This document shows, in pieces, positions 7,366 to 31,127 of a DNA stretch of 64,000 nt. The stretch comes from Ignavibacteriota bacterium (GTDB lineage: Bacteria; Bacteroidota; Ignavibacteria; Tepidaquicellales; Tepidaquicellaceae). The translations under genes were made by a program, and so were the position numbers. The notes beneath the pieces are model-generated. The model saw nothing but the letters and a program-made list of their open reading frames with translations, did not search any database and was not told the origin of the DNA. Location: contig JAPLFJ010000052.1 in NCBI GenBank assembly GCA_026390735.1, positions 62,001 through 126,000 of the forward strand, read 5' to 3'. The stretch's first letter is position 1. Each line of letters begins with the position of its first letter.

Positions 7366-8314
7366 GAATTAATCTGCTTTTAATTAATACTTTTCTGGGA
7401 ATGTTTAATAAATCAAAATGTACGTAAGCAAGAAACGATTGAAATCCGAGAATCAGCAATAACGCTGAAATGATTACCGTTCCAGCGGTTGCAGGCACAC
7501 CAGACAAGATACTTTTCCACCAATGGTATAAGCCGAAAGAAGCTCCGACCAAAGTAAACACAAGGCTAATTATCAATTCTAAGGTCCCGATATTAAAATC
7601 TCTTATAAAATAGTTATACATTATTCTTTTTACTAACCGTGAAGAATATTTAAAAGGGAAAGTAAACAATACCTTAAACACACTCAGGTTACTTTTATTG
7701 TTTTCATACGAGACCGGTACCGGAACTTCTTTTACAACAGCCCGTATTGTGTTTAAACGGAACAGCATATCGCTTTCAAAGAAAAAATCTTTGCTGATTT
7801 TCTGCAGCGGTAACATTTTCAGTATATCAGTATGAATCGCAGTATACCCATTAGTAGGGTCCATTATATCCCAGTAACCGCTAATTAATTTATTGTAGAA
7901 AGAAAGAATTGAATTACCAATCAGCCTTACAAAAGGCATATTTTTCAAATCGTTAACAAAATAAAACCTACTGCCTTTAACATAATCCGCCTCTTTGGAG
8001 TTAATGAGAAACAACAATTCCTCAATATGAGTAGGATCCATCTGTCCGTCTCCATCGATTTTAACAACAACAGAAACTTCCAGTTCAATAGCTCTCATAT
8101 AGCCGGATATCATTGCCCCGCCAACCCCCTGATTACGGACATGAGATATTATTTCTACTCTTTTATCCGAGCAGTTGTCCTCTACATATTTACCCGTCCC
8201 CTCGGGACAAAAATCATCAACAACAATTATTTTCCCAACTATTTCAGGAATCTTATTGATTACACCCAATATTGATTTTCTTACTTTAAAACAGGGAATT
8301 ACAACACATATCAT
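7358..8314 (-). CDS. GT2-family glycosyltransferase with membrane anchor (DPM1/GtrB-like)
   Basis: 318 aa. The N-terminal GT-A domain shows IVVDDFCPEG and the DxD-type metal site VVKIDGDGQMDP. A later acceptor-loop region DFFFESDMLFR is the pattern of polyprenyl-phosphate hexose synthases. Two hydrophobic helices occupy the C-terminal 80 residues. Such enzymes charge undecaprenyl phosphate with a sugar, which GT-C enzymes then use; the next-but-one gene encodes a GT-C candidate. It is the first gene of this minus-strand block and overlaps the methyltransferase by 8 bp. Confidence 0.85.
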   Translation of the reverse strand: MICVVIPCFKVRKSILGVINKIPEIVGKIIVVDDFCPEGTGKYVEDNCSDKRVEIISHVRNQGVGGAMISGYMRAIELEVSVVVKIDGDGQMDPTHIEELLFLINSKEADYVKGSRFYFVNDLKNMPFVRLIGNSILSFYNKLISGYWDIMDPTNGYTAIHTDILKMLPLQKISKDFFFESDMLFRLNTIRAVVKEVPVPVSYENNKSNLSVFKVLFTFPFKYSSRLVKRIMYNYFIRDFNIGTLELIISLVFTLVGASFGLYHWWKSILSGVPATAGTVIISALLLILGFQSFLAYVHFDLLNIPRKVLIKSRLIHE

Positions 8315-8417
8315 AGATTAATATTATTTAAGGCTTTCATTTCTCATTATACTTATTAACTTTTCTTACACCTGTATAATTTTTAAATTAAAGCATAATA
8401 TTTAAAATAATAATTAA

Positions 8418-9248
8418 ATGTATAACATTAAAATCAAAAATAAAAACGGGAATATCATAAACATAGATTTTCGTTATCCGGAAAACACCGGCAGCAAATT
8501 GCCGTTGCTTGTTTTCTGTCACGGATTCAAAGGGTTTAAGGACTGGGGATGCTTTCCGTACATGTTTGATAAATTTGCGAATGCCAACATATTCACGGTA
8601 TCTTTCAATTTCTCACTGAATGGAGTTGACAACGAAAAGAACAATCCGGTAGACTTTGAACGGCTTGATGATTTTGCCAGGAATACTTTTTCGGAAGAAC
8701 TGGACGATTTAGGTTGTGTGATAGATTATCTCGAAGAAGTAAAGGATAAATACAATTATAATTTTGATTCACTTATACTGGCAGGGCATTCCCGCGGCGG
8801 CGGAATAGCAATACTGAAGACGGCAGAGGATAAAAGAATAAAGAAACTGATAACACTTGCATCGGTAGACGAATTAAACCGCTACGGGGACGAAACAAAA
8901 AGGATGTGGAAGGAAAGAGGGTTCGTCGAGGCTTTGAATACACGAACAAGACAAAAAATGAGAATGAATGTGTCGCTACTGGAAGATCTTGAGAATAACT
9001 ATTCACGCTTAAACATAAAAGATGCCATGAAAAAAGCAAACGTTCCAACGTTGATAATGCACGGGACTGAAGATTTAGCTGTAGAAAAAAGCGAGGCAGA
9101 AACGCTTTATAATTTATGCAACAAAGACATAACAAAATTAGTAATACTGGAAAAGACCGGGCACACATTCGGTGCGGTACATCCTTTTGCGGGCACGACT
9201 CCGCATCTTGAGGAAGTTATTGAAGAAATTATTACGTTTTCCAAATAA
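8418..9248 (+). CDS. Alpha/beta hydrolase (dienelactone hydrolase/prolyl oligopeptidase-like)
   Basis: 276 aa with no signal peptide. The visible triad is the nucleophile elbow GHSRGGG (Ser), an acid in MHGTEDLAVE (Asp), and the C-terminal His in TGHTFG. An oxyanion-type HGFKGFKDWG sits near residue 35. This fits a cytoplasmic serine esterase or peptidase-like hydrolase of about 30 kDa. The substrate is unknown. It stands alone between the divergent GT2 block and the T9SS cargo gene. Confidence 0.85.
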   Translation: MYNIKIKNKNGNIINIDFRYPENTGSKLPLLVFCHGFKGFKDWGCFPYMFDKFANANIFTVSFNFSLNGVDNEKNNPVDFERLDDFARNTFSEELDDLGCVIDYLEEVKDKYNYNFDSLILAGHSRGGGIAILKTAEDKRIKKLITLASVDELNRYGDETKRMWKERGFVEALNTRTRQKMRMNVSLLEDLENNYSRLNIKDAMKKANVPTLIMHGTEDLAVEKSEAETLYNLCNKDITKLVILEKTGHTFGAVHPFAGTTPHLEEVIEEIITFSK

Positions 9249-9319
9249 TGTGAGTTTTATTAATTGATTGATAAATAGGGATTTTTTCTTTAGATTTATA
9301 TAAATTTCTTACAAATAAG

Positions 9320-12157
9320 ATGAGTTTTTTAAAATACGCCCTGACGATAGCCGTGGTTATCACTATGAGTTCAAAGTTGTTTTCTCAAGAGCAGATGATA
9401 GTGAAGCCAAAAGATTTTAATCCCGGTAGATTAATCAACTATTATAATACGGGGAACACCACAAACACCTCGGGTTATACGGTTTCGGGGTTGAATGTCG
9501 TTACCCAATATCCAAACATACGTGTTTTCAGCAGTCCCTTCGACCAAACAGAACCTTCAATCGCTGTTTCACCAGCAAGTTCAAACAATTTATTTATAGG
9601 TGCGAATACTGATTACGGAATGGGTTACTACTCGTCTTTTAATGCAGGTTCAAATTTCAGCGGTGGAGATATAATTCCGGGTTCTTTATACTATTCAACC
9701 AATCCATACGTTGCATACAACAATTCAGGTGAGCTATACTATAATTATTTAGACGATTATATAGTAACTGACCGCTCTTTCAATAACGGTGTAAACTGGG
9801 GCGGAAGAATGGTGGTGCCTTCTTCGACGCTTTACGACATGAACACTGTTGCAGTTGACAATGCTCCTGCAAGTCCATATTTCGGAAGAGTTTATGCTGC
9901 ATGGAGTAATTTCAATCTTACTCTGCCGCGAATTTATTTATCATACTCAACTGACAACGGATTAACATTCGGCACATCACATCCAATAGGTTTGCCACAG
10001 GCCAACCATTACGAACAGGGTGCAAAACTCGTGGTAGGACAAAACGGAACTGTATACTGTTTATGGGCTGTTCCAAACATTGCCAACAATAACATAGAAG
10101 ATAAAATAGCTTTTACAAAATCAACAGACGGCGGCGTAACATGGTCTGCACCAACTTATCCGATAACGATTAACGGAATAAGGGGATTCTTATTGCCGAA
10201 CGGAATACGTGTAAATTCATTTCCGTCTGTCGCAATAGACAACACAGATAAAATATTTGTAACATGGGCACAGAGAAACCTTGCCCCAGCCGGCACTGAC
10301 GCCGATGTATGTTTCAGTTATTCTTCAAACGGCGGCACCTCATTTTCGGCACCTGTCAGGGTTAATGATGACGCACTGAACAACGGCAAGAATCAATTCC
10401 TGCCGTGGATTGCAGTGGATAACGTAAACAATAATATCGCTATAGCTTTTTACGATAACCGTGACGCGTATTCTTCTGACTCGTGTGATATCTTTACTGC
10501 TGTATCAACCAATGGCGGAACAACATTCACAAACATAAAGGTAAGTGACAGAACACACAGACCGACTCCATTAAGCGGGTATGCAGACGGATATTATTCT
10601 GATTACATTGGAATAGCCGCAGACAATAACACCATCTATCCGACATGGGCAGACAACAGAAACGGGGTTGTACAGATTTATACAGCAAAGATAGAACTAA
10701 AACCGTACATAACGCATACACCTTTAAAGGATACTGAAAACCTAACGGGGCCCTATGCAGTATCTGCAAATATTTATTCATTCGGAACCACTCTTGCTAC
10801 AGGAGAACAAAAGGTTTTTTATGGGGTTGGTTCTATTACGGATAGTGTTACAATGACCAATTCAAGCGGAAACACATATACTGCTTCCATCCCGGGAAAT
10901 GGGTCGGCATCTACTTATCTATATTACATTAAGGCGGCTGACCTTAACAGCGGAGTCTCATTTCTGCCAATTAATGCTCCTGCGAACACATTTACATTTA
11001 AAACAGGAAGCGACGGAACAAAACCGGTAATAAATCATACACCTATTACATATTCAAACTGGACATTCTGGCCGGACACAATAAACGCTTATGTTTCAGA
11101 CAACCGCGGAATCGACTCAGTGTGGGTAAGATGGTACAGAAACAATCCATCTACAGGAATAAAACATTTTAAGTTAAGCAATATAACGGGAGATATATTT
11201 AAAGGAGTTTTTAATTCAAACAAAACACAGATATATCCGAACGATTCTATATTCTACAGAGTGTATGCACAGGACAATTCAACGAATCATAATTCTGATT
11301 CAACAACATTGTATCATTACACAGTAAATTCTGCCGCATTAGTGTTTGCGGGAAACGGAACAGTTACCGCATCCCATCCTTTTAAGACATTTTACATGGA
11401 TGCAAAGACTGACATGCTTTATCTGGCGAGTGAACTTACACCAGTATGGGGAGTGGAACAGGCACGCATCAACGGTATCGGGTTTAATGTATTGAATGCC
11501 TCTCCGCAGATGATGAACGGACTTACTATGAAAATTCAGAACACAACTCTGACTTCATTAACAGGATTTACCAACACAGGGTGGACATCAGTTTATTCAA
11601 ACAATTACACGATTACGAACACCGGATGGATATTCTTCAACTTCTCTCCTTTTATCTGGGACGGAACCAGCAACATACTGATTGAGGTATGCTTTAATAA
11701 TGCATCAATAAATTCAAACTCGGCAGTAACAGCAACTCTGAAACCCGGGCTTACATGGCACCAGTATCAGGATTTACCGAGTGGTAGTGGCTGCACGGAT
11801 TTAACAGGAGGCGGGTTACAGGCAAACAGACCGAACCTTGCATTTATATTGAATTCAATAATTGATGTAAAGCAAGTCGGCACAGAAATTCCAAGCAAAT
11901 ATTCGATGAAACAGAATTATCCTAATCCGTTCAACCCTGTTACAAAAATCAGTTTTGACATACCAAAAAAATCATTCGTCTCTTTGAAAATTTATGACAT
12001 ACTCGGAAAAGAAATCAAAACTTTAGTCAGTGAAGAGAAATCAGCAGGAAAATATATAGTAGATTTCGATGCGTCATACCTGTCATCAGGCGTATATTTC
12101 TACAAGCTTGAATCTGGTTCGTTTGCCGAAACGAGGAGAATGATAGTCCTGAAATAG
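9320..12157 (+). CDS. T9SS-exported BNR-repeat (sialidase-like) protein
   Basis: 945 aa with a signal peptide (residues 1-22, ending KLFSQ). The N-terminal ~460 residues form a six-bladed-propeller sialidase-like domain with several Asp-box/BNR-type repeats (STDNGLTFG, STDGGVTWSA, SSNGGTSFSA, STNGGTTFT). Beta-sandwich-like segments follow, and then the T9SS type A sorting domain over the last ~85 residues. That domain begins at QNYPNPFNPVTKI and ends with GVYFYKLESG and RRMIVLK. The protein should be secreted and attached to the cell surface, or released after CTD cleavage. BNR repeats are structural, and the catalytic Arg triad of true sialidases cannot be confirmed by eye, so enzymatic activity is not claimed. 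A paralog lies at 39230-40921. Confidence 0.85.
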   Translation: MSFLKYALTIAVVITMSSKLFSQEQMIVKPKDFNPGRLINYYNTGNTTNTSGYTVSGLNVVTQYPNIRVFSSPFDQTEPSIAVSPASSNNLFIGANTDYGMGYYSSFNAGSNFSGGDIIPGSLYYSTNPYVAYNNSGELYYNYLDDYIVTDRSFNNGVNWGGRMVVPSSTLYDMNTVAVDNAPASPYFGRVYAAWSNFNLTLPRIYLSYSTDNGLTFGTSHPIGLPQANHYEQGAKLVVGQNGTVYCLWAVPNIANNNIEDKIAFTKSTDGGVTWSAPTYPITINGIRGFLLPNGIRVNSFPSVAIDNTDKIFVTWAQRNLAPAGTDADVCFSYSSNGGTSFSAPVRVNDDALNNGKNQFLPWIAVDNVNNNIAIAFYDNRDAYSSDSCDIFTAVSTNGGTTFTNIKVSDRTHRPTPLSGYADGYYSDYIGIAADNNTIYPTWADNRNGVVQIYTAKIELKPYITHTPLKDTENLTGPYAVSANIYSFGTTLATGEQKVFYGVGSITDSVTMTNSSGNTYTASIPGNGSASTYLYYIKAADLNSGVSFLPINAPANTFTFKTGSDGTKPVINHTPITYSNWTFWPDTINAYVSDNRGIDSVWVRWYRNNPSTGIKHFKLSNITGDIFKGVFNSNKTQIYPNDSIFYRVYAQDNSTNHNSDSTTLYHYTVNSAALVFAGNGTVTASHPFKTFYMDAKTDMLYLASELTPVWGVEQARINGIGFNVLNASPQMMNGLTMKIQNTTLTSLTGFTNTGWTSVYSNNYTITNTGWIFFNFSPFIWDGTSNILIEVCFNNASINSNSAVTATLKPGLTWHQYQDLPSGSGCTDLTGGGLQANRPNLAFILNSIIDVKQVGTEIPSKYSMKQNYPNPFNPVTKISFDIPKKSFVSLKIYDILGKEIKTLVSEEKSAGKYIVDFDASYLSSGVYFYKLESGSFAETRRMIVLK

Positions 12158-16522: not shown

Positions 16523-17824
16523 CTACAAATGAGTAATACCAGAAGTAACTTTTTTCATTAACTTACAAACTTCTCTGACGTCATCAAGGCTGCATACACC
16601 AACGGATATTCTGAACCAGAGTGAATCGGGATTTGCGCCAAAGGCAAAGAAGGGAACGACCGCAATGCCCGCTTCGTCCAGAAGGAAGTTAGTAATATCG
16701 GCAACGCTGCTTATGGTTTTTCCTGCAGGGGTTTTATAACCAATGAGATTAAGTTTTACAGAAAGGTACAATGCACCCTGCGGAGATATGGCATCAACAT
16801 CAATACCTGTTGCTTTAATTTGCATTATAGTTTTATATAGTAAATCGAGTCTATCAAACAATCCGCTTTTAAATCCCTTCAGATATTTTTCCACTTCTGC
16901 GGTATCTTTAAGAAACTTTGATACGGCAACCTGTTCAGGTTTAGGGCTCCACGCGCCTATATGAGCAATCATTTGTTTCATCTTTGCGATAACCGGTTCG
17001 GGGCCGAAAGCCCAGCCGAGCCTGACCCCTGTTGCAGCAAAGCACTTAGAAATACCATCGACAAATATTATATAATCTTTTATTTCAGGGCATACTTCTA
17101 CCGGGTTTATGAACTTAGTATTGCCGTAAGTAAGGAGCCAGTAGACGATATCATAGAAAACGTACAGAGGTTTATTATCTTCAGCAATCCGTCTTTTGTT
17201 TTCTTCAACTATGAGATTGAATATATCCTTTGTATTCTCAGAAGAATAAGTCGTTCCAGCGGGGTTTGAAGGCGAGTTAAAAGTAATCAAAGAAGCAAAA
17301 CCCAGAAGAGGTTTGATTTCTTCAGGGGTCACCATAAAATTATTTTCGGGTTTTGCCTCAAAAGTAATTTCCTCTGCTTCAACGAGTTGAACATAATTAT
17401 AATTATTCCAGGAGGGCACAACGTTTATAACTTTATCGCCTTTATTAATCAGTGTTTTAAAAAGAATGTATGTTAAGGGACGTGAGCCGCTGCCTGTAAT
17501 GATTTCGTTTGGGTTGTAATCGAATCCGCCAAAGTATTTTATGTGAGCAGATACTGATTCAAGCAATTCGGGCATACCGCCAACGACGGGATAATTAGTA
17601 TACTTTGATTTATAGGCTGTGATTATTTCCTCCTCAAGTATTAACGGAATTGGAAAATGTACAGGGTCAAAATCCCCAATCGTGAGATTAAAAATCTTTT
17701 CGCCTTTACTTCGGCGCTCGTTTATTTTTGCGGCAATATTACTGATTGAAAGCGAACTTAGTTTATTCGCAACATCAGATAATTTATGTATAGAATTATC
17801 ATGATTCAATAGTGTATTTATCAA
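16523..17824 (-). CDS. Class I/II PLP aminotransferase (candidate N-succinyl-DAP aminotransferase)
   Basis: 433 aa, fold type I aminotransferase. The PLP Lys sits in DGISKCFAATGVRLGW, the substrate-carboxylate Arg near the C-terminus in WFRISVG, and the cofactor Asp/Tyr region in PLYVFYDIVYW. The start is taken as TTG (17824); no in-frame ATG is better placed, and the segment aligns with the start region of the paralog at 28701-29969. It is transcribed divergently from the lysine operon, which has DapD and a DapE-like enzyme but no DapC, so this protein is a good DapC candidate. That role is inferred from neighbours; a general aspartate or aromatic aminotransferase is the alternative. Confidence 0.8.
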   Translation of the reverse strand: MINTLLNHDNSIHKLSDVANKLSSLSISNIAAKINERRSKGEKIFNLTIGDFDPVHFPIPLILEEEIITAYKSKYTNYPVVGGMPELLESVSAHIKYFGGFDYNPNEIITGSGSRPLTYILFKTLINKGDKVINVVPSWNNYNYVQLVEAEEITFEAKPENNFMVTPEEIKPLLGFASLITFNSPSNPAGTTYSSENTKDIFNLIVEENKRRIAEDNKPLYVFYDIVYWLLTYGNTKFINPVEVCPEIKDYIIFVDGISKCFAATGVRLGWAFGPEPVIAKMKQMIAHIGAWSPKPEQVAVSKFLKDTAEVEKYLKGFKSGLFDRLDLLYKTIMQIKATGIDVDAISPQGALYLSVKLNLIGYKTPAGKTISSVADITNFLLDEAGIAVVPFFAFGANPDSLWFRISVGVCSLDDVREVCKLMKKVTSGITHL

Positions 17825-23795: not shown

Positions 23796-25013
23796 ATGAG
23801 CATAGAAGAATTTCAACAGCACGAGTTTTTCAAACACGTAAGTCCGGATGCGATAAGTCATTACATTAACAATTATGACTCACCACTTTATTTATATTCA
23901 AAAAGAATAGTAACACACGCATACACAAAACTAAGGAAGGGGCTGCCTTCGAACTTTGAAATATTTTATGCACAGAAGAGCAATCCTAACAAGAATATTT
24001 TAAGACATCTGAATTCACTTGGTGTGGGCTGTGATACTGCATCGCTCGGAGAAATGGATGCGGCGCTGAATGCGGGGTTTACGGCTGACAGGATAATGTT
24101 TACGGGACCTGCGAAGAGAGAGGCGGAGTTGCGGTATGCGGTTGAGAATAATTTGTTGTCGATAAACGTGGAGTCGATTCAGGAGTTAATGCTTGTGAAT
24201 GAGATTGCGCAGGAGTATGATAAAGAACAGAATATACTCGTAAGAATTAATCCGTTGTACGAAACGGGAGAGACGACGAAAATAATAGGCGGGACGGGAG
24301 TAAGTAAATTCGGGATAGATATAGAGGACATTGATGAGTTTTTCGCGGCGCTGAAAAAAACAACGAACGTGGCTTTAAAGGGAATACATATATTCAATTC
24401 ATCACAGATACTCGACTGGGAAAAGATTTACAACAACACGAAGAACGTTATAGACACTGCTATAAAACTAAGCTGCAATTATACGTTTGAAGTAACGCAC
24501 ATAGACCTTGGAGGCGGGTTCGGGATTCCTTACAGTGCAGAAGAAAAGCCGCTGGACATTACGAGACTTGGAGACGAACTTTTTAAGTTGGTTGATTCAG
24601 AAGAGTACAAAGGATTTCTTGACGGAGTTGATTTAATATTCGAGCCGGGAAGATTTTTAAGCGGGCACTCGGGAATTTATTTATTTAAAGTTTTATACAC
24701 GAAGACTTCGAGAGGCAAGAATATTTTATTAACTGACGGCGGGATACATCATCTTTTAAGACCTGCATTAATCGGGACGGGTCATCCTGTTGTGAACATC
24801 ACTGCGTATTACGAAAAGAGAACGACGAAAAGCAATTACATGGTTGCGGGTCCGTTGTGCACGTCGCTTGATTGTTTCGGCGAAGAAATCTGTCTGACTG
24901 AATCAAAACCAGGCGACATACTTGCAGTATTAAATGCCGGAGCTTATGGTTTTACAGAGTCGATGCCTTTATTCCTTTCACATCCACCAGCAAAAGAGAA
25001 GTTTATAGACTGA
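23796..25013 (+). CDS. lysA: Fold-III PLP decarboxylase, LysA-like (diaminopimelate decarboxylase candidate)
   Basis: 405 aa alanine-racemase-fold barrel plus beta domain. The PLP Lys is in FYAQKSNPN, the glycine-rich phosphate loop is HIDLGGGFGIPY, and the segment EPGRFLSG is conserved. The last gene of the operon would be expected to encode DAP decarboxylase, which makes lysine. However, the signature Cys segment reads GPLCTSLD instead of the usual CESGD, and the loop HIFNSSQ replaces H-IGSQ. These features resemble carrier-protein-linked or exosortase-associated type III decarboxylases. Position argues for LysA; sequence argues for an unusual one. No dapF is seen in the window. Confidence 0.78.
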   Translation: MSIEEFQQHEFFKHVSPDAISHYINNYDSPLYLYSKRIVTHAYTKLRKGLPSNFEIFYAQKSNPNKNILRHLNSLGVGCDTASLGEMDAALNAGFTADRIMFTGPAKREAELRYAVENNLLSINVESIQELMLVNEIAQEYDKEQNILVRINPLYETGETTKIIGGTGVSKFGIDIEDIDEFFAALKKTTNVALKGIHIFNSSQILDWEKIYNNTKNVIDTAIKLSCNYTFEVTHIDLGGGFGIPYSAEEKPLDITRLGDELFKLVDSEEYKGFLDGVDLIFEPGRFLSGHSGIYLFKVLYTKTSRGKNILLTDGGIHHLLRPALIGTGHPVVNITAYYEKRTTKSNYMVAGPLCTSLDCFGEEICLTESKPGDILAVLNAGAYGFTESMPLFLSHPPAKEKFID

Positions 25014-25124
25014 TTTTAGTTAACCACAAACTACAACATTAAATTTGAAACCCATCATTTTCTAATTACTACTTTATTTATTGGATTATGTATTGACTAA
25101 GTTACGAATTAGATTAATTCAGAT

Positions 25125-25174
25125 ATAATGCAGTCATAATGGAGGCATAATGGACTCATAATGCAGTCATAATG
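25125..25174 (+). repeat. 11-bp tandem repeat forming a ladder of 3-codon mini-ORFs
   Basis: Four 11-bp units of the form NNNNCATAATG follow an initial ATAATG. Read as codons they give ATG-CAG-TCA-TAA, ATG-GAG-GCA-TAA, ATG-GAC-TCA-TAA and ATG-CAG-TCA-TAA. Each stop shares its last base with the next ATG (TAATG). The fifth ATG (25172) opens a 41-codon ORF. Because 11 is not a multiple of 3, each unit shifts the frame by exactly the amount needed to keep the pattern going. Confidence 0.75.
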
Positions 25175-25297
25175 CACTTAAGAAGAAAAAAACAAGAAAG
25201 AATCGAACAATTTAGGAATATTCAAGAAAAGCATACTTTAACAGAATTATATGAAAAAGAAGAGAACACAAACAAATACCACAAGAAAAGGGCCTAA
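25172..25297 (+). CDS. Small charged ORF at the end of the mini-ORF ladder (hypothetical)
   Basis: 41 codons from the last ATG of the 11-bp repeat array to a TAA. The peptide starts MHLRRKKQERIEQF and is very rich in Lys, Arg and Glu, like a short helix. No recognisable domain. Its only support is an open frame directly behind a chain of stop-start overlaps; it may well be fortuitous. Confidence 0.25.
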   Translation: MHLRRKKQERIEQFRNIQEKHTLTELYEKEENTNKYHKKRA

Positions 25298-25321
25298 ATG
25301 AAGTGGTTATTAAAAAAATTC

Positions 25322-26455
25322 TTATTGTTTCGTGTCGAATTCAAATCTATCAAATTTCCTTATTTGGTATATTTTTCCAAAAATCCCGAGTGTAACATTT
25401 TCCCTATTTCCTGTTGTAAGTCTTGCGCTACCAATAGAAAACAATAGATAGTTATCTATTTTGATAATTTTATCACCAATTGTAACCATAGTCTCCTTCA
25501 TTATTTTAGCTGCAACATTTTTTTCATTTGTGAATGGGTTATCAATTCCTGAATCAACTGATACTTCAGTAGTGATTTTAACAATCAAAGAATACATTAA
25601 GTCAGTGATATAAATTTTATGCATTTGTTCTGTCGGATTTGTTGCAATCATTACGAAAATTAATATTGAAACAATTGCGGTGAATATAATATACCTTTTA
25701 TTCCTTTTACTCTTTTTGGTTTTTATATTTTTTGATAATAGTCCTGCATCTTTTCTTTCATATTTTTCCGGATTTAACAAGCTTAAATTATTATTACACT
25801 CAAAAATTATGTCATTCAACTCCTCTCTGAATGTCTCACTAATAAATATATCATTATGTTTGTTTATAATTCGATTACACAAAAATATTATATGTTCGTA
25901 AAATTTGTTTTCTTCAATTCTTAATTCCTCTGGAATGAATTTCAATAGTCGGATTATTTTCTTGCTGTTATCTACATAAATATTAACAGTAGTTTCTCTT
26001 TGTTCAATAAACCTTATATTGTTGTCATTTAATTTGTAGAGATATTCTGATATTACATACAAGATTTCTTTAATCTTTCCGCGAATATCATTTTGCTTCG
26101 TTTCAGGTGTATATTTTAAGGCGTTTTCAAAACACGATTTAGTTTCATCTATTCTAAGATTGTTTTCAACAGCTAATCTACTTATAACGATTGCTTTATA
26201 GTACCATACTAAATAATTAGCAAAATCAGTTTCTAATAATTTATTGCAATATTCGTATGCCTCGGTGAAGTTTTGATTTTTTATTGCTTCTTCAATCAAT
26301 TTCATTAAGTTTGTATTATTTGTATTCAAACTTTTTCGAATAGCTTCTCTAACTTCTATATTTGTCCCGCAATACATACAGATGATAATATCTTTGTCAT
26401 CAGGTATATGTAATTCCCCTTTACAGGAAGGGCATTTTGCTAATATAAAATTCAT
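25322..26455 (-). CDS. Zinc-ribbon/TPR-like membrane protein of unknown function
   Basis: 377 aa. An N-terminal zinc ribbon (CPSC at residues 8-11 and CMYC near 27-30) is followed by a helical region with a TPR-like rhythm (residues 55-215, FTEAYEYCNKLLETD). A basic stretch (KTKKSKRNKRY) leads into one transmembrane helix (IIFTAIVSILIFVMIA). The C-terminal ~110 residues are probably outside the cytoplasm. The zinc ribbon at the start followed by a membrane-spanning region is a common design in accessory genes of unknown role. It is the left-hand gene of the island between lysA and the second aminotransferase. Confidence 0.6.
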   Translation of the reverse strand: MNFILAKCPSCKGELHIPDDKDIIICMYCGTNIEVREAIRKSLNTNNTNLMKLIEEAIKNQNFTEAYEYCNKLLETDFANYLVWYYKAIVISRLAVENNLRIDETKSCFENALKYTPETKQNDIRGKIKEILYVISEYLYKLNDNNIRFIEQRETTVNIYVDNSKKIIRLLKFIPEELRIEENKFYEHIIFLCNRIINKHNDIFISETFREELNDIIFECNNNLSLLNPEKYERKDAGLLSKNIKTKKSKRNKRYIIFTAIVSILIFVMIATNPTEQMHKIYITDLMYSLIVKITTEVSVDSGIDNPFTNEKNVAAKIMKETMVTIGDKIIKIDNYLLFSIGSARLTTGNRENVTLGIFGKIYQIRKFDRFEFDTKQ

Positions 26456-26571
26456 GTTGTGGTTCTTTATTGTTTATTCTTATATAATAAAGTGTAAATC
26501 CGTTGGTTGGTTATTGCCAACGGTAATTTGAACTTTAATGCAGTAATTGTTTTATTCTTCAGGCCATGTCA

Positions 26572-27093
26572 TTATTTAAGATATTTAAAAATTTCTTTCT
26601 CGAGTTTTCCATTAGAATTACATGTAACTTTTTGACTAAAAACTAGAATGTTTGAATTGTTGTACTGATTTAATTCAGAGTGAGAAAAGAAATTAATAAT
26701 TACTTTTGTTGTATTATCGTCCACTTTTTTTACAGAAACATTGAAATTGCCACTTTGTTTTTCAAATCTTAAATGGGTTACTTCCATTCCATAACCATTA
26801 TCTTGTCCATGTAACGCCGTACCACAATCTATATATTTTCCATCTTCTGTTGATAAATTATATTCAGATGCAATAATCCCCGAGCTTTTATCAAGAATTT
26901 TAATAGGTGTATTGTGACTTGCAAACCAATCAATTATTTTTTGCCATATTGTTTCAAAGTTGTTTTCAAAGGTTTGCTCTTTTTCAACAATATAATCCTT
27001 CGGTTTGTCATATTCTGCAGGACTTCCCGTACAACCTAAAAATAGTGTTGTAGTAACTGTTAGAATAAATAGTGCTGTAAATAATTTTTTCAT
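26572..27093 (-). CDS. Hypothetical lipoprotein
   Basis: 173 aa. The signal peptide ends with a lipobox (LFLGC, Cys at residue 21), so it is probably lipid-anchored. The mature part (IWQKIIDWFASHNTPIKILDKSSGII) recalls NlpC-like or DUF4136-like envelope lipoproteins with an alpha-beta core. No catalytic motif is visible. It lies in the accessory island with 116-127 bp gaps on each side, so it is probably transcribed alone. Confidence 0.6.
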   Translation of the reverse strand: MKKLFTALFILTVTTTLFLGCTGSPAEYDKPKDYIVEKEQTFENNFETIWQKIIDWFASHNTPIKILDKSSGIIASEYNLSTEDGKYIDCGTALHGQDNGYGMEVTHLRFEKQSGNFNVSVKKVDDNTTKVIINFFSHSELNQYNNSNILVFSQKVTCNSNGKLEKEIFKYLK

Positions 27094-27164
27094 AATATTT
27101 ATATTTAAGTTTGTAAAAAAGAATATATAACCAATATTTCTATTTCTGTTTAATATCTTATGGT

Positions 27165-27198
27165 AAATTATTCGCCGCTTGCGACGAAAGAATAATTT
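27165..27198 (-). repeat. REP-like hairpin after the nuclease gene
   Basis: Perfect 9-bp arms (27165-27173 and 27190-27198) enclose CGCCGC-TT-GCGACG, which resembles the core of the 98-bp REP elements elsewhere in the window. It starts 23 bp after the nuclease stop and may serve as its terminator. Confidence 0.5.
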
Positions 27199-27220
27199 AT
27201 TTTAAAATAGTCATTAATAA

Positions 27221-27808
27221 TCAAATTCTGCTAATCGCCGAATCTAATCTTTTATAAAAATAATTATCGTCCGGTATTATATTTCTATAAATATCATAAA
27301 TCTCTTTCCAAGTTATTAATTCGAAGGATTTTAACACATAATCATATGGACATATTGCTATTTGTTTTATGTTGGTAATAATGCCCTCTGAAAGATTTGT
27401 TACTATATCAAGAATGTAACTTTGTTCTAACATCTGCTCATTCAAAGAATATTCACTATACTTAGAAAACAATTTTATTTCAAAAAGTAAAGCCCAACTT
27501 TCATATATTATTAGCAAATCAGGTTTGCTTTGTTTTAACTTTTTCTTTGAAAAACTTTCTGATGGGATTTCAATTTTATAATGAGATAAATCTCTTTCAA
27601 CATTTGGCTCGGTAATTAATTGCAAAGAAGAAAGACTGTTCTGGAAATCTGACACACTTATATCATTATTGTTTACTGATAAAGTTTTCTTGTTTAGATA
27701 TTCAAAAAACACTTTTAATCCATTGAAATCATCATAAGATAAAAGATATGGTAATATTGTCGCAGAAAAATACCTTTCTTCCCTAATTAAATCATCAAAC
27801 CTAAGCAT
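27221..27808 (-). CDS. PD-(D/E)XK nuclease-like protein
   Basis: 195 aa. The segment KPDLLIIYESWALLFEIK places Asp97, Glu110 and Lys112 in the PD-(D/E)XK arrangement. Gln125, Gln129 and Tyr131 follow on the next helix, as in several nuclease-fold families. The N-terminus (FDDLIREERYFSATILPYLL) is like those of hypothetical restriction-type nucleases. No helicase or methylase is nearby. It overlaps the upstream 88-aa gene by 8 bp, so the two form a two-gene unit. Function is unproved; defence or a DNA-repair accessory role are the natural guesses. I do not recognise a named family. Confidence 0.55.
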   Translation of the reverse strand: MLRFDDLIREERYFSATILPYLLSYDDFNGLKVFFEYLNKKTLSVNNNDISVSDFQNSLSSLQLITEPNVERDLSHYKIEIPSESFSKKKLKQSKPDLLIIYESWALLFEIKLFSKYSEYSLNEQMLEQSYILDIVTNLSEGIITNIKQIAICPYDYVLKSFELITWKEIYDIYRNIIPDDNYFYKRLDSAISRI

Positions 27809-28067
27809 TTTTCTTTTCCCATCTTGCAGGCGATTCCTCTTGAGGGGACAATTGTGTTATTTTATTTGTTTCACGGAGATATCGTTTTATTGCTACACCT
27901 ATTACTGACTGAAAATTTCTCGGAGAATTGATTTTCAATTCATTATATTTAGCTGGATAATCTGATTCAAGGATTTTTACAACAGTTATTGTTGTAAAAT
28001 GTTTTCCTGGTATGGAATTAATAACTTTTGAAATTGTGTTATTGTCTAAAACATTGTGCTGTGCCAT
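27801..28067 (-). CDS. Small partner protein of the PD-(D/E)XK nuclease (hypothetical)
   Basis: 88 aa, with no signal or membrane segment. A helical N-terminus (NTISKVINSIPGKHFTTITVVKIL) is followed by SPRNFQSVIGVAIKRYLRET, a pattern compatible with a winged-helix-type DNA-binding domain. The end is charged (ARWEKKNA). It precedes the nuclease-like gene and overlaps it by 8 bp, the layout of an antitoxin/toxin or specificity/nuclease pair. No family recognised. Confidence 0.5.
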   Translation of the reverse strand: MAQHNVLDNNTISKVINSIPGKHFTTITVVKILESDYPAKYNELKINSPRNFQSVIGVAIKRYLRETNKITQLSPQEESPARWEKKNA

Positions 28068-28221
28068 AATATTAATATTTTAAATTTATGAAAATGTTCA
28101 ATACTTATAGCTTCCTTTTGTAATCAAAGAATTTATATCCTTTTTGGGCCTTTTATCGTTTTCAAATTTATAAATACTAATTGAAATTGTTATAAAAAAA
28201 GGACGCAACTGACATTACATC

Positions 28222-28335
28222 CTACATTGAGGTACTGGTATACCTTCCGTAAAAGACATAAGAAAGTGCGTCCCATTCGGGACGCAACATTCTTGCATGT
28301 TCTTTACGGAGGAAAATTACCAGTTTTCAATGTAG
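28222..28335. repeat. 114-bp compound inverted repeat (candidate structured RNA or mobile element)
   Basis: Outer arms of about 38 bp (28222-28259 and 28297-28335) pair imperfectly, with a few mismatches and bulges. They enclose an inner region with a perfect 7-bp stem GCGTCCC/GGGACGC (28268-28274 and 28279-28285) around an ATTC loop, flanked by further pairing bases. The motif GGACGCAAC also occurs as a direct repeat just outside (28201) and inside (28280). The whole could fold into one long hairpin. It lacks integron attC boxes and a T-run. Confidence 0.6.
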
Positions 28336-28647
28336 AACATAGCAAAAAGCTACGTTAAAATCTTATTTATAAAGAACGTTTACAAATCGAATCAATTATT
28401 GTCAATCGTTATTCAAATATACTATCTATACAATCTCTTTAAAACACAAAAAGGTCAAAGCTTAAAATGCCGATTCCCTGAATCAACATTCTAAACCCCA
28501 ACCCTAATTGCGTTTTGCCATATATAAAAGTTTTTAACCGAATTAAAAACTTTTCCCATGATTTTAACTTATAAATATTTTTTACAATTTACAAGTTAAT
28601 ATTTTTGTTCCAAGATTTCTTATCAGAAAGCTTTGACTTTTTTATCA

Positions 28648-28674
28648 AAAACCCCGTTGATTTGACGGGGTTTT
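28648..28674 (-). terminator. Terminator of the second aminotransferase gene
   Basis: The stem AAAACCCCGT/ACGGGGTTTT (28648-28657 with 28665-28674) has a 7-nt loop and, on the minus strand, a following T-run. It starts 27 bp after the gene's stop. Confidence 0.8.
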
Positions 28675-28700
28675 GAGTGATTTTGATATAAAATTATGTA

Positions 28701-29969
28701 TTATTTCAATTTTTCGATAGTTTCTTTCAGTATAAGGACTGCAACATTAGCTTCTTCTCTGCTGCAGGTGCCGACTGAAAGTCTGAACCAAGGGGAATCC
28801 ATTTTTGCGCCGAATGCATAGAAAGGAACGAGTGCAATTTTGCCTTCTTCAAGAATGTATCCGAGGACGTCGTCAATAGTTTTCAGTTCTTTTCCGGCTT
28901 CGGTTTTTTTGCCGACAAGGTTTAACTTAACAGTTAAGTACAGAGCACCCTGCGGATAGATGGCATCGACATCATAGCCTGATTTTTTAATATCCATAAT
29001 ACCTTCGTAGAAAGTATTCAGGCGCGTGAAGAGTTCGGATTTGAAATGATCGAAGTACTTATCAACTTCAACGGTGTTCTTCAGGAATCTTCCTGTTGCG
29101 ACCTGTTCCGGTTTCGGAGCCCAGGCACCGATATGTGCAAGGATGGCGCTCATTTTTTTGATGATTGCCTTTGGCCCGAAAGCCCAGCCGAGTCTGACGC
29201 CGGTAGCCGCAAAGCATTTTGAGATACCATCTATAAAGACAACGTAGTCGCGGATTTCAGGATTTAATTCAATCGGATTATAATGTTTTGTGTCGCCGTA
29301 GACAAGAATCCAGTAAATCATATCGTAGAAAACATAAAGAGGTTTACGGTTTTCTTTTGCTCTCTGCTTATTTTCATCGACAATAAGGTCAACAATTTTC
29401 TTAAGTTCTTCTTTAGTAAACACAGTACCGCTTGGATTAAGCGGTGAGTTCAGAGCAAGAAGTGCTGCATCTCTTAAGTGCGGTTTTAATTCTTCGGCAG
29501 TTGGTACGAAATTATTTTCAAATTTAGTTTCAACACTAACTGGAACGGCATCTATCAGCTGGACGTAACAGTTATTATTCCATGACGGTGCAGGGTAGAC
29601 AATCTTTTCGCCCGGATCGACGAGTGTCAGCATAAGAGTATAAGTAAGCGGTCTGGCGCCGCTGCCGACGATGATTTCGTCAGTACCATAATCGAAACCG
29701 CCGCGTTTCTTAATGTATTCGGAGATTGCTTCGCGAATGACCATAACGCCTTCAGAAGGAGGATAGTTTGTTAAATCTTCGTCGTAAGCATTTTTGATTT
29801 CCTGTTTAAGTGCATCAGGAATAGGAAAGACTCTTGGGGAAAAATCACCTATAGTAAGATTAAATATTTTTTCACCTTTTTCAATTCTTTCATTTACTTT
29901 ATCTGATATCTTTCTGATACCTGAGGGGATGAGATTTTGCGCTGTTTTTGATAACAATAATTCGCTCAT
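28701..29969 (-). CDS. Class I/II PLP aminotransferase, paralog of 16523-17824
   Basis: 422 aa from the ATG at 29969 (MSELLLSKTAQN). The frame extends 14 codons further upstream to 30011, but that extension (LFLHLYITYTLLI) is not family-like. It has the same key segments as the paralog: PLYVFYDMIYW, PLP Lys in DGISKCFAATGVRLGW, and WFRLSVGTCS near the end. The two proteins align over their whole length with long identical blocks. It stands alone with its own terminator, at the far side of the accessory island from the lysine operon. Either copy could be the DAP-pathway aminotransferase; the other may serve aspartate or another amino acid. Confidence 0.85.
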   Translation of the reverse strand: MSELLLSKTAQNLIPSGIRKISDKVNERIEKGEKIFNLTIGDFSPRVFPIPDALKQEIKNAYDEDLTNYPPSEGVMVIREAISEYIKKRGGFDYGTDEIIVGSGARPLTYTLMLTLVDPGEKIVYPAPSWNNNCYVQLIDAVPVSVETKFENNFVPTAEELKPHLRDAALLALNSPLNPSGTVFTKEELKKIVDLIVDENKQRAKENRKPLYVFYDMIYWILVYGDTKHYNPIELNPEIRDYVVFIDGISKCFAATGVRLGWAFGPKAIIKKMSAILAHIGAWAPKPEQVATGRFLKNTVEVDKYFDHFKSELFTRLNTFYEGIMDIKKSGYDVDAIYPQGALYLTVKLNLVGKKTEAGKELKTIDDVLGYILEEGKIALVPFYAFGAKMDSPWFRLSVGTCSREEANVAVLILKETIEKLK

Positions 29970-30176
29970 AATTAATAAGGTATAAGTTATGTACAAGTGT
30001 AAAAATAGCAATTAAGGACTTGAAAAGTTAGTCAAAAAACGAACAACAGAGGGTCTTATCCATAACAAAAGCCATAACACAAGCACTTTAATTAATGTAT
30101 ATAATGTTTAATGAAATTATTTTAAATTCGATACACAGAAGAATAAGTTTTAATAATTTTAATAAGATATAACAGA

Positions 30177-31127
30177 ATGGAATTAAACGGCAAGAAGGTT
30201 CTGATAACCGGTGGTGCGGGATTTCTGGGTTCTCACTTGTGCGACAGGTTTGTAAAAGAAGGATACCACGTGATTGCGATGGACAACTTAAGTACGGGTT
30301 CGCTGAAAAACATTGAACACCTTTTCCCATTAAGCAACTTTGAGTTTTACTTTCACGACGTAACCAAGTTTGTTCATATACCCAGAAAGCTTGACTGTAT
30401 ACTCCATTTCGCGTCACCTGCTAGTCCGATAGATTATTTAAAGATGCCTATACAGACTTTAAAAGTCGGTTCACTCGGCACGCATAACCTTCTTGGTTTA
30501 GCGAAAGAAAAATCATCAAGGTTTCTGATTGCGTCTACATCAGAAATTTACGGCGACCCTGATGTACATCCGCAAACCGAAGAATACTGGGGCAACGTAA
30601 ACCCGATAGGCCCAAGAGGTGTGTACGATGAAGCGAAGAGATTTATGGAAGCAATCACGATGGCGTACCACACATTTCACGGCGTTGAAACAAGGATAGT
30701 AAGAATATTCAACACATACGGCCCGAGAATGAGACTTGACGACGGAAGAGCGCTGCCTGCTTTCATGAAACAGGCAATAGAGGGACACGACATCACAGTC
30801 TTCGGAGACGGAAGCCAGACAAGGTCTTTCTGTTATGTGTCAGATTTAGTTGAAGGGATTTACAGATTACTGTTAAGCGATTATGTGTTTCCTGTAAACA
30901 TAGGGAATCCAAACGAAATAACCATAAAACAGTTTGCGGAAGAAATAATAAAATTAACAGGTACGAAACAGAAGATAGTATATCTTGATTTACCTACAGA
31001 TGACCCAAAGCAAAGACAGCCGGATATTACGAAAGCAAAAGATTTGCTGAGCTGGGAGCCAAAAGTCGACAGAGCGGAAGGGCTGAAAATCACGTACGAA
31101 CATTTCAAAAAAGTACTTAACAAATAA
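30177..31127 (+). CDS. UDP-glucuronate decarboxylase (UDP-xylose synthase)
   Basis: 316-aa extended SDR. The NAD-binding motif [12 protein letters not shown] is at residue 13, the catalytic YDEAKR (YxxxK) near 150, and the UXS pattern is strong ([40 protein letters not shown]). It converts UDP-glucuronate to UDP-xylose. The convergent neighbour encodes UDP-glucose dehydrogenase, which makes its substrate. The two genes share the terminator at 31137-31172. Confidence is high. Confidence 0.93.

Follow-up and report, generated by a model that had tools for sequence, protein, structure and literature searches.

An overlapping gene pair for a PD-(D/E)XK-like protein and a small partner, preceded by a structured leader, in an accessory insert of an Ignavibacteria genome

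What might two small overlapping genes do when they sit in a genus-variable stretch of an Ignavibacteria chromosome? The window considered here is a 64,000-nt stretch of a genome of 4.0 Mb in 69 contigs, and a sequence-only reading of it had proposed a two-gene unit with an 8-bp overlap, placed in an accessory island and encoding a nuclease-like protein with a small partner, as a compact toxin-antitoxin or defence module. Here we ask which of these roles the proteins, their relatives and their surroundings favor.

The gene pair and its accessory insert

The coordinates proposed for the unit are exact on the minus strand, and the two open reading frames share positions 27801-27808. The features of the locus are as follows.

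27221..27808, minus strand: second gene of the pair, predicted nuclease, 195 aa, ATG start (ORF call)
27801..28067, minus strand: first gene of the pair, the partner, 88 aa, ATG start (ORF call)
25022..28638, no strand assigned: insert that four congeners lack, lying between lysA and an aminotransferase gene, with approximate edges (BLASTN against G001-G004)
26572..27093, minus strand: lipoprotein-like ORF downstream of the pair, 173 aa, no family above cut-off, signal peptide read by eye
25322..26455, minus strand: last gene of the insert, 377 aa, zinc-ribbon-like N-terminus and DUF4359

The insert spans 3.6 kb and is missing in all four congeners examined, in which the gap between lysA and the aminotransferase gene is 54-244 bp. 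The GC content is 0.277 at positions 26001-28000, compared with 0.33-0.43 in the other 2-kb intervals; this and the absence from the congeners bear out the island location. The insert carries four genes, all on the same strand, and the two downstream of the pair are not included in the mechanism proposed below. A Pfam and ORF check found no evident methyltransferase among the four, and PADLOC found no MzaB-E-like genes among their proteins. An 11-bp repeat is present in four copies at 25125-25174, close to the 3' insert edge, and two aminotransferase paralogues (16550-17782 and 28701-30011, 56% identical) flank the lysine biosynthesis genes.

A second full pair is present in a genome of another Ignavibacteria genus within the same family (G020, contig C114, CALMST010000114.1), where the overlap is 16 bp and the nuclease and partner share 47% and 62% identity with those of the window. 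Between the two genomes, NG86 dN/dS is 0.49/1.64 (~0.3) for the nuclease and 0.35/1.51 (0.24) for the partner, with synonymous sites near saturation. Because the overlapping arrangement recurs in G020 with protein-coding substitution patterns, we consider both ORFs to be more than chance. Neither protein had been assigned to a nameable family from its sequence, and Pfam, PADLOC, NCBIfam and PHROGs likewise give no match at a meaningful level. In the titles and abstract openings of the literature searched, we found no description of the pair or of the leader element upstream of it.

Predicted folds of the two proteins

Twelve residues are invariant in the four aligned nucleases, down to ~25% identity: R9, E11, R12, E67, R72, D73, P96, D97, E110, K112, Q125 and Q129. 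The D97/E110xK112/Q/Y pattern proposed earlier thus holds for D97, E110, K112, Q125 and Q129, whereas its tyrosine was not specific; Y183 is the sole invariant tyrosine in the four-homologue alignment. In the structural model, built from the four-sequence alignment (pLDDT 75.6) and showing a PD-(D/E)XK-like core, P96-D97 stand immediately ahead of strand 98-102, E110 and K112 close strand 105-111, and Q125 and Q129 lie within helix 119-139, after the latter strand. By alignment and model together, the PD ... (D/E)xK residues occupy the places expected in the superfamily core.

The nearest structural neighbors of the model are Nt.BspD6I (Z 7.9), AF1548 (7.8), R.BspD6I2 (7.7) and FokI (7.3), and they also include two repair nucleases, EndoMS (5gke) and the Pyrococcus abyssi repair endonuclease (2vld), both at Z 7.0. 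Judging by their names, we take these neighbors to be mostly PD-(D/E)XK enzymes. The scores lie under the clear level of the tool, with a best Z of 7.9 (<8) and a best Foldseek E of 3.5e-3. The nuclease-like core suggested earlier is supported by the kind of neighbors found, although at Z values below 8, and by the way the invariant residues of the motif fall on the strands and the helix where they are expected. Unlike named members of the superfamily, the protein has no sequence match to Pfam, NCBIfam or PADLOC families or, in a sequence search, to solved structures, and it adds an N-terminal R-x-E-R helix and an E-RD motif. Judged by motif and model, the 195-aa protein is probably a PD-(D/E)XK-like nuclease, for which we predict DNA cleavage.

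The partner was modeled from two sequences as four core helices (pLDDT 74.6). Its top structural matches are AlkX/YcaQ (Z 5.8 over 68 aa, 2.5 A), linker histone H1 (Z 5.4) and FOXO1 (Z 4.9), and the model resembles the winged helices of linker-histone, forkhead and AlkX proteins at Z 4 to 5.8. The winged-helix fold, put forward earlier as something to look for in the small protein, is thus weakly supported by the model. A SPARW motif at the C-terminus is also found in a relative of the partner in genome G022. A search against solved-structure sequences gave one match to the partner, at E 0.51, and a Pfam hit to Sigma70_r1_2 (E 0.012, below cut-off) was judged to be chance.

A structured leader upstream of the pair

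The sequence-only reading had overlooked a structured element that lies upstream of the pair and is co-oriented with it.

28195..28356, minus strand: leader element of ~160 nt (covariance model R1), ending 128 bp before the partner start codon
28200..28223, minus strand: 3'-terminal part of the element, an intrinsic-terminator-like hairpin with a T run (terminator call on the window copy)
28186..28606, minus strand: ~420-bp repeat enclosing the element, five copies in the source genome at 80-86% identity

The hairpin upstream of the pair folds far better than its shuffles (z -9.1). In the alignment of the five repeat copies, which was fitted to no structure, 16 of 62 predicted pairs are kept through changes on both sides. 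Covariance model R1 matches at full length 33 times, in 15 of 99 relatives; eight of these matches lie in the source genome, and E values go down to 1e-45. The leader alignment, which was fitted to the model, comprises 30 of the 33 copies and leaves out four opposite-strand palindrome matches; 92.8% of its cells pair, and 47 of 60 pairs show both-side changes. The cells with both-side changes number 331, compared with 89 after shuffling and no more than 61 with slid partners, and an independent fold on the same alignment recovers 44 pairs, 36 of which have both-side changes.

In all 30 aligned copies the last helix is followed by a T-rich run, and U-G pairs are conserved at two positions, in 28/30 and 30/30 copies. 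The strand specificity of the T run, together with these U-G pairs, favors an RNA over a DNA structure. As a comparison with a DNA element, the outer boxes of integron attC sites read RYYYAAC and GTTRRRY; inspection of alignment A12 by eye finds no GTT in several copies (L060, L061, L067, L079), and in place of the 5' AAC most copies have AGC or GGC. Rfam 15 has no match in 24900-30200, and the best sub-threshold matches in 28060-28700 fall far below the gathering cut-off. Viral contigs scanned with a loose pattern gave seven stretches, none of which matches the model. The box TANNTTTG, which we take to be a Bacteroidota-type -7 box, is found within 130 bp upstream of nine of the 30 copies; no general promoter is claimed, since these are mostly near-identical copies from the source genome itself.

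Downstream of the leader, the first ORF of 80 aa or more is co-oriented with it in 27/29 cases (the thirtieth copy runs out of contig), whereas upstream ORFs are split 14 to 13 in orientation. Ten downstream proteins searched against Pfam comprise CheB-CheR, BNR/sortilin, PAS and PAS/Cache proteins and six without a family, and because the downstream genes are so diverse, we suggest no ligand. We read the element as an undescribed leader family that precedes accessory genes in Ignavibacteria relatives. It resembles intrinsic-terminator leaders and riboswitches in its covarying structure, its 3' terminator and its position before genes, but differs from known ones in having no Rfam 15 family. 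Two alternative pairings are available to the 5' box, one with its own hairpin and one with the 3' half of the terminator, and they suggest that the leader may act by attenuation.

A broader reading, which we offer tentatively and consider rather doubtful, is that a single system extends across the class, in which a terminator-bearing RNA leader would co-activate diverse accessory genes by antitermination, its cargo including the defence nuclease pair, PAS sensors, CheB-CheR and secreted BNR proteins. If so, one RNA device would govern laterally acquired genes, those for defence included. The proteins alone are of modest novelty: they represent an unnamed nuclease family and a conserved small partner, which one relative carries next to a methylation-linked defence locus. 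The leader may matter more, as a strongly covarying element that lies outside Rfam and precedes accessory genes of unrelated kinds allows a direct test of whether bacteria share an RNA switch for the genes they acquire.

Relatives, genomic context and the role of the pair

The complete pair is known from two genomes only, that of the window and G020. The nuclease was found in three of 99 relatives, namely its own genome, G020 and, at 28% identity, G035; the partner was also found in three, with G022 (28%) as the third. At wider scales, the nuclease is present in 3/44 genomes of the order, the partner in 2/395 genomes of a phylum sample, and nuclease profile A3 matches 6/395 phylum genomes including its own, mostly in part. 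A contig scan with alignment A1 gave three nuclease loci; the two nearest named are Ignavibacteria MAG contigs, one of which belongs to G020. Searched as a single query, the window nuclease has no close homologue in genome contigs or viral contigs, and scans of viral contigs with alignments A2, A3 and A6 gave no match. Neither protein matches plasmids by tblastn; in phages, tblastn found nothing better than E = 1, the one partner match at that value being judged chance. Four further proteins, in G129, G246, G418 and G446 (245-280 aa), show the REER and PD...EAK pattern; only model positions 78-187 matched, and they were not accepted as firm members. G388 was set aside as a chance match, confined to the C-terminal extension seen in long-form proteins and falling in a place where another ORF lies.

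Both short-form nucleases (2/2) are accompanied by the partner. By contrast, the long-form relatives in G035 and in the alphaproteobacterial genome of locus L014, the latter from the genome-contig scan and found in its order in that genome only (1/28), have no partner gene at the locus and no partner match genome-wide; conversely, G022 and G203 have partner relatives without the nuclease. At the G035 locus (L010, 3849-6494), a 281-aa long-form nuclease with ~85 extra C-terminal residues lies near Nmad3 and DUF2779 genes.

The most informative context is that of G020, where the pair is followed directly by Vsr, two C5 methyltransferases, an HNH protein and MzaB, C, D and E-like genes (GHKL ATPase, Z1, DUF4420 and AIPR); the contig extends just 326 bp ahead of the pair, and this neighborhood is thus seen from one side. 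Gene sets of this kind, with Z1, DUF4420 and cytosine methyltransferase, have been presented as a putative defence system (PMC9523054) and, earlier, as MORC-associated restriction-modification neighborhoods with Vsr (PMC2292703). The pair is absent from the components listed in section 11 of PMC9523054, and while it sits directly before such genes in G020, the insert in the window has none.

We consider that the pair stands about an even chance of being a restriction-like defence nuclease with a separate winged-helix subunit or regulator. It would be a compact DNA-cleavage unit acquired horizontally, in which the second gene product would act as a metal-dependent PD-(D/E)XK-type nuclease, most likely a restriction-like effector directed at foreign DNA, which may counter phages. 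The partner, made from the same message and coupled to the nuclease via the gene overlap, would probably bind DNA, either guiding or gating the nuclease, possibly in physical association with it, or repressing its own operon. The leader with its intrinsic terminator would probably set expression, and in G020 the pair would work beside the methylation-linked Vsr, C5 methyltransferase and Mza-like system. The defence role is favored by the conservation of the overlapping pair in two genera, the invariant motif, the G020 neighbors, the accessory insert and the codon pattern of selected genes, as well as by the setting of the distant G035 relative. It is weakened by the single further genome with a full pair, the nuclease fold score and the weak partner fold match, by the occurrence of each family without the other and by the absence of plasmid and viral matches. 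A further point against it is that no methyltransferase that would explain self-protection is evident in the insert.

The defence half of the earlier proposal thus gains from the G020 context, whereas the toxin-antitoxin half fits in gene order and overlap but less clearly in distribution. As a toxin-antitoxin system, which we regard as possible, though unlikely and less supported than a defence nuclease with partner, the nuclease would be the toxin and a winged-helix antitoxin would both neutralize it and repress the operon. The small gene comes first, the overlap is 8 bp, the accessory insert is a plausible carrier and the partner model is winged-helix-like; however, partner relatives and long nucleases occur apart, and the best context is a restriction-modification-like locus rather than a lone toxin-antitoxin site. 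At locus L009 in G022 (7902-8590), moreover, the partner-family gene overlaps a different downstream gene (143 aa) with no nuclease adjacent, which counts against a dedicated antitoxin. We presume that the 143-aa protein is a cyclophilin-fold DUF3830.

A quite improbable alternative is that the pair is what remains, or a solo part, of a restriction-modification system, namely a restriction subunit with its control protein that were captured by the insert while the methyltransferase was lost. In some type II systems, a small control (C) gene overlaps the restriction gene, and C proteins are lambda-repressor-like HTH proteins. The pair is similar in that a small gene for a putative DNA-binding protein comes first and overlaps the nuclease gene, but it differs in its winged-helix-like partner and in having no adjacent methyltransferase in the window; the cognate methyltransferase expected of a type II system is not among the four genes of the insert, and methyltransferases stand beside the pair only in G020, along with Vsr. 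Such a loss would agree with this arrangement, but both ORFs are intact, the motif is kept and substitutions are biased to synonymous sites, all of which argue against decay. A DNA repair or other house nuclease is very improbable, given the patchy occurrence in the order within a genus-variable insert, even though EndoMS and the P. abyssi enzyme are among the structural neighbors and Vsr is itself a repair enzyme.

It is worth noting two further observations. The source genome contains a second Z1 locus (G000:C14, L023, 7787-14143), in which Z1 was tested and a GHKL-like ATPase and a DUF4420-like gene were named by eye; its Z1 gene is divided between two ORFs, 9722-10552 and 7787-9634, which may reflect a frameshift. 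In addition, more distant REER/PD...EAK nucleases in three genomes (L024, L025 and L026) are each followed by a gene of 214-234 aa, for which the one of three scanned has no Pfam match, and they apparently lie, as read by eye, inside islands with BREX-like and type I restriction-modification genes.
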